Assembly: GCF_000346485.2 (NCBI RefSeq)
Contig: NZ_KQ976354.1
Location: 8,213,835 to 8,277,834, forward strand
Direction: 5' to 3'
DNA from: Scytonema hofmannii PCC 7110
GTDB lineage: Bacteria > Cyanobacteriota > Cyanobacteriia > Cyanobacteriales > Nostocaceae
DNA: 64,000 nt
Below, piece after piece: positions 4,149 to 11,061 of the stretch. Below the pieces are notes generated by a model. That model worked only from the letters and a program-made list of their open reading frames with translations. It did not search any database and was not told the origin of the DNA. A program made the translations under genes and the position numbers. Position 1 is the stretch's first letter. Each line of letters opens with the position of its first letter.

Positions 4149-4895
4149 TTATGCAGGAACTTCGGAAGCTGGCTTGCCAACAATGTTTGCGTGCTTGGTA
4201 TCGTCGTCGAGGATACCGAACTCTACGAGTAGAGCTTCTAGCTCGTCCATTTCCAAAGGTGTGGGGATTGTTAGTTTGTCGTTCTTAATGATCTTCTGAG
4301 CTAATGCGCGGTATTCATTGCTTTGGTTGCTGTCGGGTGCGTACTCGTTAACAGTCATCCGGCGCAATTCAGCGTGCTGAACGATGTTGTCGCGAGGTAC
4401 GAAGTGAATCATTTGGGTGTTCAAACGTTCTGCCAAGGTTTCGATGAGTTCGATTTCCCGGTCAACTTTACGGCTGTTACAAATCAGACCACCCAAACGT
4501 ACACCACCAGAGTGAGCGTACTTGAGAATACCACGAGCGATGTTGTTAGCAGCGTACATCGCCATCATTTCACCAGAGGTAACGATGTAAATTTCTTGAG
4601 CTTTGCCTTCACGAATGGGCATTGCGAAACCACCACAGACAACGTCACCCAATACGTCGTAGGAGACGAAATCTAGGTTTTGGTAAGCACCGTTTTCTTC
4701 CAAGAAGTTGATGGCAGTGATAATACCACGTCCAGCACAACCTACTCCAGGCTCAGGACCACCAGATTCTACGCAACGAACACCACGGAAGCCAGTGAGC
4801 ATTACTTCTTCAATTTCTAAATCTTCTACTGCGCCGCGCTCAGCAGCAAGGTGTAATACGGTGGTTTGAGCTTTGCTGTGTAGCATCAAACGGGT
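4149..4895 (-). CDS. nifH: nifH 3' segment (248 codons): nitrogenase Fe protein
   Basis: NifH is the ATP-driven electron donor to NifDK. This part starts in the middle of the protein at T-R-L-M-L-H-S-K and runs to the normal C-terminus. It holds the [4Fe-4S]-ligand region ([23 protein letters not shown]) and the switch II segment ([14 protein letters not shown]), but not the P-loop, which is on the other segment at 10918-11061. There is no start codon of its own in the conserved sequence; an internal ATG (4889) is only the second methionine of normal NifH. Joining the segments at the shared CC gives a 296-residue protein, the normal length. Confidence 0.97.
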
Positions 4896-4901
4896 GGTGT
4901 A
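4891..4901 (-). other. left attachment site of the nifH element
   Basis: On the minus strand the sequence reads TACA-CC-ACCCG: element sequence TACA, the shared CC (4896-4897), then nifH codons 49-50. Together with the right border it predicts the circle junction TACA-CC-TGTA, a short dyad around the crossover dinucleotide, as expected for serine recombinases. Confidence 0.75.
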
Positions 4902-4937
4902 TGATTAACAAAGAAAACAGTTTATTGACGATCGTTT

Positions 4938-6308
4938 ATGCGAGTAGGTTACGTCCGAGTTAGTACGAGAGAACAGGATGAGGGAAATGCTCTGGAACAA
5001 CAGACAGCCCGTGTTGAGAAGTCAGGTGCTGTTTTAATATTTTCAGATATTGAGAGTGGACGGTCAGACAAGCGTAAGGAATTTAACAAAATGCTTGCTA
5101 TGTGCAAGCAAGGAAAAATAAGTGAGGTTGTTATCACTCGTATTGACAGATTGGCAAGAAGCGTAATTACCATTCATCGAACGCTTGTAACCCTTGAAGA
5201 GTATAAAGTTAAATTGGTTGTCTTGGATGCTCCAGTTGACCCAACATCGCCTTTTGGGTGGTTCAGTGTTAATCAAATGGCAGGTTTGGCAGAATTTGAA
5301 TCGAGGTTACTTTCGGATCGAATTAGGCACGGGTTGAACTATTTCCGCGAACAAAAGAAAGCAGCCCCGCGTCCCCCTTTTGGGTATAAGCGGGTTGACG
5401 AAAAATATGCACCAGACATGACGCTGCATGAGTCTGGTAAAACTAACTGGGCGATCGCATCTGAGATCGTTAACTATTTTTTATCTGGCAACGCCACATT
5501 AAGAAGTACCGCACAATATGTACTAGAAACTTACGGAATTTCATGGACAGCAGCGGGGTTGAGGTATTGGATAACTAGTCCAGTGTTACGAGGACATACT
5601 GCTTACAATATGCGAGGCAATCTCAGCAACCCTGAAAAGTGGGAGGTACATCAAGATACTCATGAGCCGCTACTTTCTAACGATAAATTTAAATTTATAC
5701 AGAAAAAATTGGAAGACAATCGACACAAGTATAGTTATGGCAACAATAAAAATAGTAATCAAGAGCCACTACCCTTGGTAGGGCAAATTATTTGTGATGA
5801 CTGCGGATATAAATGTTATTGCTTGAAGCGTAAATGGAAAACTTACAGAATTCGGTGTAAAAAACATGATAATCTAGGAAATGCTTTCTGTAGCAACAAC
5901 ATTAGTACCTACCTGCCAGATATTATTTCAGCCGTAGACGCTACACTAGCGGCAAGGTATGAAGAAATCAAAAAATATACAGTAGCAAATTTATCATCAA
6001 AGGAAGAGGAGAATCCAGAGACGATCGCTAGGCAAGAGCAATTAAAAGCGCTGAAGCTATTGCCACAAAATCCAATTATTCAAAATGCAATTGAACAAAC
6101 TTTGCTAGAGATACAAGTACTGAAGCAAAAAGAGGTTACAGCAAAGCAGGTAAGCATTGAATTGGTAAAAACGCTAACTACCTGCTTTGAAAACATTGGC
6201 TATTGGAACGAATTATCTTGGGTAGATAAACAACCAATCTACAAAGAATTAGTTGATTGCGTAAAAATTTTCAATGGCAAGATACTAGAAATCAAGCTAC
6301 TGGTTTAG
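4938..6308 (+). CDS. large serine recombinase, XisF-like, probable excisase of the nifH element
   Basis: A 456-residue recombinase. Residues 1-~140 are the resolvase catalytic domain with Ser9 in VRVSTREQ and the arginine-rich ITRIDRLARS segment. Residues ~150-270 match the 'recombinase' DNA-binding domain. A zinc-ribbon-like stretch follows (CDDCGYKCYC, RCKKHDN), and a helical coiled region fills the C-terminus. The length fits the XisF family that excises the fdxN element rather than the tyrosine recombinase XisA. It starts 41 bp inside the element border and points inward, the usual placement of an element's own recombinase. Its short upstream stretch overlaps the attachment region, so excision would change its promoter context. 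Substrate assignment is inferred from position. Confidence 0.9.
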   Translation: MRVGYVRVSTREQDEGNALEQQTARVEKSGAVLIFSDIESGRSDKRKEFNKMLAMCKQGKISEVVITRIDRLARSVITIHRTLVTLEEYKVKLVVLDAPVDPTSPFGWFSVNQMAGLAEFESRLLSDRIRHGLNYFREQKKAAPRPPFGYKRVDEKYAPDMTLHESGKTNWAIASEIVNYFLSGNATLRSTAQYVLETYGISWTAAGLRYWITSPVLRGHTAYNMRGNLSNPEKWEVHQDTHEPLLSNDKFKFIQKKLEDNRHKYSYGNNKNSNQEPLPLVGQIICDDCGYKCYCLKRKWKTYRIRCKKHDNLGNAFCSNNISTYLPDIISAVDATLAARYEEIKKYTVANLSSKEEENPETIARQEQLKALKLLPQNPIIQNAIEQTLLEIQVLKQKEVTAKQVSIELVKTLTTCFENIGYWNELSWVDKQPIYKELVDCVKIFNGKILEIKLLV

Positions 6309-6453
6309 CTAACTTCTCAAATTCGGCTTCAAACTCTTCTTTCGTCATCGCCATAAGTCGTTTTCTTGTGGCTGAGTCTAAGTGGCGAATTGTGTACCAT
6401 CTTTGAGCAGTGCGGAGTAATATCTGTGCTGCTGTTTCTTGCTGCATAATCAT
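6292..6453 (-). CDS. small hypothetical protein, 53 aa
   Basis: A short frame starting at ATG 6453 whose 3' end overlaps the recombinase gene by 17 bp in convergent orientation. The predicted protein is helical and charged (LLRTAQRWYTIRHLDSATRK, then MAMTKEEFEAEFEKLAKPVA). The frame is closed by a stop shortly upstream, so it is not the end of a long gene. Family unknown; it could be a small element-encoded accessory factor or a chance frame. Confidence 0.35.
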   Translation of the reverse strand: MIMQQETAAQILLRTAQRWYTIRHLDSATRKRLMAMTKEEFEAEFEKLAKPVA

Positions 6454-6706
6454 GAAGCGTTTATATTTGTCTTTAGTTTCTGCTTGGAACAGCCCAGGTG
6501 GATTGTAGTAGTTTGTTTATGTTATCCTATTAACTAAGTTTCCTATGCCATAAACTTCACCGAACCTTACTTTGAGAATAGCAAAGACTAAAGAATTGTT
6601 TGTTCATCGCAAGCCAACTGTGTGTATTAACGCGATCGCTATATAATCATCATTCGTCTAGTGAAGCGATCGCACATCCTCTCAAACTAGAACTGGTTTC
6701 TGCTTC

Positions 6707-10690: not shown

Positions 10691-10733
10691 TAAGTAGAGC
10701 GGGTAAGATTTGAGGGTTTTTTCTTAAAACTGC

Positions 10734-10832
10734 AGGACTTACGCAAAAATTGCCAGAAACCCTAATTTATTGAACCGCCAAGACGCCAAGACGCCAAGAG
10801 CGCCAAGATTTCGTAGAGCGTGCGTAAGTCCT
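10734..10832. repeat. 99-bp miniature inverted-repeat element
   Basis: Terminal inverted repeats AGGACTTACGCA / TGCGTAAGTCCT bound a short segment containing tandem CGCCAAGA units (10776-10808). There is no coding content. The form is that of a MITE. It lies inside the nifH element close to the right border. Confidence 0.65.
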
Positions 10833-10912
10833 AAACTGTTGTAAATAAATGTTATTGATGTCGGGCGATCTGAAGCATGGGCATTCACAATTATGTGTTT
10901 TTTTTGTAAAAA

Positions 10913-10923
10913 CTACAGGAGTC
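10913..10923 (-). other. right attachment site of the nifH element
   Basis: On the minus strand: GACT-CC-TGTAG, that is nifH codons 47-48, the shared CC (10918-10919) and element sequence TGTAG. Beyond the CC the nifH frame is lost. Confidence 0.75.
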
Positions 10924-11061
10924 AGCTTTGGGGTCACAACCTACAATCATAATGCGCTGACCCATTTCTGCCATAGCGGCAAGGGTATTTTGAGAAGTTG
11001 TAGACTTACCGATACCGCCTTTTCCGTAGAATGCTATTTGTCTAATTTTTTCGTCAGACAT
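10918..11061 (-). CDS. nifH: nifH 5' segment (48 codons): nitrogenase Fe protein N-terminus
   Basis: This stretch encodes [20 protein letters not shown] and continues to GCDPKADS, the universal start of NifH including the P-loop GKGGIGKST and the Asp of CDPKADS. After Ser48 the frame enters element DNA. GCAGGAGAAAA precedes the ATG at 11061. The piece is too short to be noticed by a simple length cutoff and would be missed if only long frames were considered. It must be joined to 4149-4895 by excision of the 6-kb element. Confidence 0.96.

Follow-up and report, generated by a model that had tools for sequence, protein, structure and literature searches.

A probable XisF-type interruption element divides nifH1 of Scytonema hofmannii PCC 7110 between codons 48 and 49

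In the stretch of 64,000 nucleotides from Scytonema hofmannii PCC 7110 analysed here as a whole (G000:C1:8213835-8277834, hereafter the window, from a draft genome of 12.29 Mb in 39 contigs), the gene nifH1 is cut into two pieces by 6,022 bp of DNA that carries, next to one of the junctions, an intact gene for a large serine recombinase of the XisF family. This DNA is very probably an XisF-type interruption (excision) element of the nifH position-150 variant, which would be released as a circle in heterocysts. Elements at this position of nifH are already known, having been published in 2012 and 2016; what is added here is the well-supported placement of a fixed crossover at the wobble position of the Ser48 codon and the observation that, from one close relative to another, the recombinase gene can occupy one end of the element or the other.

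Structure of the interrupted nifH1

The features of the split gene, with the recombinase gene (xis), are as follows.

10918-11061, minus strand: nifH1 piece 1, codons 1-48, with the P-loop GKGGIGKS (PF00142 positions 1-48, expectation value (E) 6.2e-21)
4149-4895, minus strand: nifH1 piece 2, codons 49-296 and stop, 747 nucleotides (nt), with both cysteine motifs (PF00142 positions 41-270, E 1.7e-108)
4896-10917, unstranded: nifH element, 6,022 bp, delimited by junction analysis
10918-10919, minus strand: N-side copy of the predicted crossover dinucleotide CC, at nifH nt 143-144, equal to the other junction in every pair of junctions compared
4896-4897, minus strand: predicted crossover dinucleotide CC, C-side copy, from junction comparison
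4938-6308, plus strand: xis, large serine recombinase of the XisF family, 456 amino acids (aa) (PF00239 and PF07508 over cut-off, PF13408 just under)

The two pieces are co-linear, nothing of the gene is lost, and when joined they encode a NifH of 296 residues without internal stop; the coordinates, strand, frame and length given in the initial annotation (48 and 248 codons on the same strand) hold. Piece 2 matches the nifH model TIGR01287 with E 2.1e-113 and 378.2 bits, below the cut-off of 394.35, as expected for a partial protein. The N junction reads GCTGACTCC followed, across the cut, by TGTAG, and the C junction reads CATACACC followed by ACCCG. The bases CC are the only ones common to both junctions in register, forming a direct repeat of only 2 bp at the ends of the element whose two positions also agree in relatives, and joining at them gives GAC TCC ACC CGT, just as the initial annotation had read it. 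Its separation of the P-loop and the Fe–S ligands onto different pieces is likewise borne out for the P-loop and the cysteine motifs taken to hold the ligands.

The recombinase gene begins 42 bp inside the C-side junction and reads into the element on the strand opposite to nifH. Its product scores 539.9 bits against the NCBIfam equivalog NF041201 (recomb_XisF), for which the cut-off is 375, and its resolvase and recombinase domains exceed the Pfam cut-offs, with the zinc-ribbon domain just under. Its best matches among solved chains are to DNA invertases and resolvases; they are weak and lie mostly over the catalytic part. In comparisons with four relatives each, nonsynonymous (dN) and synonymous (dS) divergences are 0.038-0.070 and 0.61-0.83 for nifH piece 2 and 0.075-0.116 and 0.77-0.99 for xis, with no internal stops in either; the nifH1 pieces and the recombinase appear to be under purifying selection and both look like working genes.

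The excision reaction in heterocysts, its timing and any directionality factor are inferred. In vegetative cells, nifH1 would remain split; the recombinase would bind both junctions and cut them at nifH nt 143-144 (CC) with a 2-bp stagger, and strand exchange would release a circle of 6,022 bp and rejoin the codons TCC-ACC, giving back a NifH of 296 residues. If the element behaves like the rest of its family, the reaction would take place late in heterocyst differentiation, together with the excision of the nifD and nifE elements described below.

Crossover site and symmetry of the element ends

The junctions of 19 genomes, this one included, were tabulated and compared over nifH nt 128-160 (33 columns). 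The columns that are equal between both junctions in all 19 pairs are 135, 143, 144 and 152, and among them nt 144 is the only variable one (C in 9 pairs, T in 9, and A in 1), always equalling its partner. Two more CC pairs, read by eye in genomes G188 and G192, extend the agreement at nt 143-144 to 21 of 21 genomes. The crossover corresponds to the second and wobble bases of the Ser48 codon (TCN), present as CC, CT, or CA.

The two ends of the element, when joined, form a near-palindrome around the same bases, made up of the following arms.

4898-4919, unstranded: recombinase-side arm of the element, forming one half of an attP-like palindrome (17/22 positions symmetric with the other arm)
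10896-10917, unstranded: element arm on the far side, the other half of the palindrome (symmetry with the recombinase-side arm)

None of 20,000 shuffles was as symmetric as the 17/22 observed in this window. Moreover, the mean symmetry of the joined ends is 0.614 when centred on nt 143-144 and does not exceed 0.418 for any of the 33 further axes tried, and across the 19 genomes the arms agree at 10-17 of 22 positions, the weakest case being G050, where 6.9% of shuffles are as good. A search for repeats within each junction region separately found none, because the symmetry emerges only once one end of the element is joined to the other, and the joined ends folded as single-stranded DNA have no more structure than shuffles (z +1.37). 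This arrangement is in keeping with serine integrases as described in the available part of PMC3783163: they act on a pseudo-palindromic attP, and the dinucleotide at its centre determines the alignment that leads to strand exchange. Covariation and joined-end symmetry together argue strongly for a crossover fixed at nifH nt 143-144. The complete excision element with a resolvable crossover that the initial annotation had proposed is well supported by the intact XisF recombinase, purifying selection, covariation, and end symmetry.

Occurrence of the same cut in relatives

A scan of genome contigs for the recombinase gave 21 loci, 18 of them cyanobacterial, with a nifH piece at 15 (L015-L029) and no match at L030-L035, although the contig of L030 (G192:C420) nonetheless opens with a short nifH stub. 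Across the family as delimited in GTDB, 51 of 217 genomes, this one included, encode a relative of the recombinase at E <= 1e-60, and nifH was examined in 30 of the 50 others. These comprise 18 genomes with two tabulated junctions; the two read by eye, of which G192 has an N piece that stops at the contig end, one base past the cut; two dropped as irregular (G181, with no N side, and G031, with no C side); and eight in which nifH runs uninterrupted through codon 48 (G012, G014, G017, G029, G060, G063, G066, and G194). The 18 further tabulated genomes are cut at the same base and have a related recombinase beside a junction. In 12 of the 19 tabulated genomes (11 of 18 when this one is left aside), a single contig carries both junctions in an order and orientation that would allow excision, and these elements measure 1,768-101,652 bp.

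Other arrangements of nifH were also seen. In G186 (C250, 1236-34243), the gene is in at least four pieces, the second of which (codons 49-139) is inverted between two recombinase-bearing stretches, through either programmed inversion or misassembly. In G028 (C1:4426359-4499588), the third piece is found 58 kb upstream of the first and in the same orientation, an order in which joining pieces two and three would place the gene on a circle with the intervening DNA. Two genomes apparently have a further cut close to the beginning of the gene, ahead of about codon 26 in G031 (C233, near 4603) and of about codon 11 in G188 (C253). Finally, G181 (C1001:14279-14548) has an arm at the C junction and, some 230 bp on, a second arm-like stretch and xis, an irregular layout that is perhaps rearranged.

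Placement of the recombinase gene

As in this window, xis adjoins the C-side junction and runs opposite to nifH in 17 of the 21 genomes (15 of the 19 tabulated, plus G188 and G192), while in the other four (G198, G083, G044, and G186) it adjoins the N-side junction and runs in the same direction as nifH. On the recombinase tree, which holds the 19 tabulated genomes and in which G188 and G192 were not grouped, the side of xis needs four changes, three of them forced by well-supported branches, and these three may amount to one gain and two losses. G198, with xis on the N side, groups with G182, which has it on the usual side, with support of 100/98; the long branches of G044 and G028 make their placement less sure.

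The simplest reading of the opposite xis ends is that the whole element has turned around, the arms being too alike for proof. In three of the four N-side genomes, the arm beside xis is nearer the xis-side arms of the other 15 (0.65 vs. 0.53, 0.61 vs. 0.56, and 0.62 vs. 0.53), with G044 as the exception (0.41 vs. 0.44), whereas the far arm fails to separate the sides in any of the four (differences <= 0.03). An exchange of place between both arms in G198 was also considered and is not borne out by this comparison.

Since the joined ends are near-palindromic, the dinucleotide alone should set the orientation of the element. We tentatively propose, as a possibility that falls somewhat short of even chances, that recombination holds the wobble base in step across up to 100 kb, and that a TCG codon, whose CG is self-complementary, permits turning and so explains the opposite recombinase ends. 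In G186, unless the contig is misassembled, rebuilding nifH would call for a programmed inversion in addition to excisions. Among the 217 family genomes, 9 have a nifH with TCG as codon 48 (11 matches), but none of the 21 paired split copies does, which leaves turning through TCG neither proved nor excluded. Differences in the location and orientation of xis have been reported within the nifD-895, nifD-227, and flv3B variants (PMC4874684), and no such statement was found for nifH-150 in the part of that paper available. No other survey of such elements was found in the literature among the matches listed.

Cargo of the element and other genes of the genome

Besides xis, the element carries the following open reading frames (ORFs), in which Pfam and PADLOC scans give no evident link to nitrogen fixation.

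6707-7021, minus strand: ORF with RTX calcium-binding repeats (PF00353, E 5.8e-8)
6993-7613, minus strand: Uma2-family protein (PF05685, E 2.9e-31; PADLOC candidate family PDC-S03, E 8.8e-94)
7704-8183, minus strand: ORF of 159 aa, with no family in the Pfam, PADLOC, NCBIfam, and PHROGs scans
8885-9514, plus strand: NADPH-dependent FMN reductase-like protein (PF03358, E 7.4e-18)
9557-10690, plus strand: Gfo/Idh/MocA oxidoreductase (PF01408, E 3e-27)

The remaining nif features of the window are listed next.

2657-4031, minus strand: N-terminal part of nifD, cut at TTACTCCG (TIGR01282 matched only to 434 of 466 positions)
11913-12815, minus strand: nifU, uninterrupted (TIGR02000 over cut-off)
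12942-14159, minus strand: nifS, uninterrupted (TIGR03402 over cut-off)
14248-14634, minus strand: 4Fe-4S ferredoxin, open frame, fdxN by position (PF00037 over cut-off)
14687-16150, minus strand: nifB, uninterrupted (TIGR01290 over cut-off)

The 3' part of nifD lies at L009, position 521 and below (G000:C1:8195520), and shares TTACTCCG with the 5' part; the element between them measures 20,971 bp by assembly, with 20 N in L009, and extends beyond the left end of the window. Just inside its far end lies an ORF of 472 aa with a PHROGs integrase match (E 8.4e-12), a score of 22.0 bits against Pfam Phage_integrase, below the cut-off of 27.1, and no NCBIfam match at 1e-10. From its site and position we take it to be XisA, and by these weak matches it is a candidate tyrosine-type recombinase. 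The gene nifE is also split, by about 9.5 kb (G000:C1:8181834-8192855), its parts covering positions 2-192 and 213-459 of the 459 in TIGR01283 and another recombinase of the XisF type (493.4 bits) lying between them, while nifK and nifN are whole. The initial annotation is silent on the recombinase at 4938-6308, the nifD part within the window, and the split nifE outside it. A flavodiiron gene is likewise split, over about 47.5 kb, with parts of its ODP domain at 168788-169021 (+) and 216527-216841 (+) of G000:C1 and an XisF-type recombinase (531.7 bits) at 212125-213711 (-), near the far end.

An uninterrupted, solo nifH2 of 298 aa, which shares 90.5% identity with nifH1 across 285 codons, lies at G000:C1:2439112, in a locus of 3.8 kb whose other ORFs include no nif gene. 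Its presence means that excision from nifH1 is not proven essential, which depends on whether nifH2 can substitute. Thus, the statement of the initial annotation that this genome must excise the nifH element to fix nitrogen was too strong, and the second intact nifH that it had named as a possible refutation does exist, although that annotation had also asked that this copy carry all the activity. Some excision is required in any case: PF00148 has seven matches in the genome, namely nifD, nifK, nifN, the two nifE parts, and two taken for chlB and chlN, so one Mo-nitrogenase set is seen, with nifD and nifE in single copy, and since both are split, the Mo-nitrogenase would need some excision regardless of nifH2.

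Elsewhere in the window, a transposase-like ORF of 507 aa occurs twice, at 52891-54414 and 60593-62116, in copies that are identical in DNA sequence and 7.7 kb apart, and two WD-repeat-like proteins (19142-22627 and 26016-28718) have a nearly identical N-terminal part.

Alternative explanations

The intact nifH2 would suit a fossil element, one that no longer excises and has left nifH1 non-functional, with the Fe protein coming from nifH2, but this is improbable given that the nifH1 pieces and xis keep open frames with low dN relative to dS, that the crossover copies agree in every one of the 21 pairs, and that nifH2 stands elsewhere, apart from any nif gene among the ORFs of its locus. Large serine recombinases are typical phage integrases, and together with a cargo that has no evident link to nitrogen fixation this would be in keeping with an integrative element of ordinary phage-like type, whose retention or loss is random and not under developmental control. 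This reading seems just as unlikely, since the Pfam scan of seven element ORFs gave no phage structural family, many genera retain the same site, and the gene pieces are open. An assembly artefact or a one-off insertion, which a draft of 39 contigs with N runs nearby (20 N in L009) might suggest, has a negligible likelihood, as the same-base cut recurs in 18 further genomes, 11 of which have the two junctions on a single contig and arranged for excision in order and strand, and the element carries a fitting recombinase.

Several observations nevertheless weigh against a developmentally excised XisF-type element. Under random pairing at nt 144, the mean is 8.6 agreements and all 19 are reached in 5e-6 of 200,000 shuffles; relatedness is not taken into account in this value, and the core base needs four changes on the recombinase tree. 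The symmetry of the arms is weak (10-11 of 22) in G050, G172, and G198, and in the one same-genus relative both nifH copies found are uninterrupted at this site. As for a directionality factor, a whole-genome search for XisI gave no match inside the element and 22 elsewhere, and neither XisH nor XisI was found among the seven element ORFs scanned with Pfam. Regulatory sites give no help either: the NtcA-type pattern GTAN8TAC occurs 15 times in the window against 11.0 expected, one copy being at 4518-4531 within nifH, which is not above chance, and sigma-70-like sites number 7 against 13.8 expected, with no promoter assignable to xis.

One of the 22 XisI-family matches falls within the window, at 30585-30899, far from the nifH element.

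Relation to known elements

The variant at nifH position 150 +/- 7 comprises, in the available part of PMC4874684 (Hilton et al. 2016, with 19 nifH elements in six variants), Anabaena sp. 90 #1, A. circinalis AWQC310F #1, and Scytonema hofmanni PCC 7110 #3. The repeat described here starts at nt 143, within that range, and the recombinase is of the serine type, presumably related to the recombinases of the three named strains. No difference was found from PCC 7110 element #3 as far as that source describes it, the comparison being one of layout, and the flavodiiron split is laid out as that of flv3B of PCC 7110 in the same source, the identity of the gene as flv3B being putative. From these matching nifH and flavodiiron layouts, the element is probably PCC 7110 #3, already catalogued. 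In Anabaena sp. 90, reported in 2012, two nifH elements of 80 and 5.9 kb split the gene into 153, 273, and 444 bp (PMC3542288, available in part); as here, a cut lies near codon 50 and the recombinase is on the opposite strand, but here there is one element instead of two.

The fdxN element of Nostoc PCC 7120 shares with this one the recombinase family of its XisF (NF041201). However, it interrupts fdxN and carries xisH and xisI, whereas here the target is nifH, the ferredoxin frame is open, and the element has no XisI match and no XisH or XisI among its scanned ORFs. The nifH element does not belong with the fdxN elements; it has the co-linear gene pieces, recombinase gene near one end, and direct repeat of an excision element, and its recombinase exceeds the XisF cut-off.

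Outside cyanobacteria, a gene is likewise rebuilt by precise excision in a differentiating cell by SP-beta in spsM of Bacillus subtilis (PMC4191935, in the text available) and by the skin element in sigK, but host and element are unrelated and the likeness is one of description. The attP of the A118/LI serine integrase is also pseudo-palindromic and centred on the crossover dinucleotide, GG in that case, according to the available portions of PMC3783163 and PMC3556126; that enzyme is a phage integrase, whereas the recombinase here resembles solved chains weakly and mostly in the catalytic part.

Implications

The element confirms a documented system, that of developmentally excised elements in nif genes. 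It also calls for caution, as surveys of nifH can miss split copies and an intact nifH2 complicates claims of need. Moreover, sequence alone suffices to locate the 2-bp crossover and to show the joined-end symmetry in a whole element family. Turning of the element, if true, would take xis from a place antisense to nifH to one directly after the first codons of that gene, and the opposite placements of the recombinase in close relatives constitute a natural experiment on the polarity of XisF-type recombinases.

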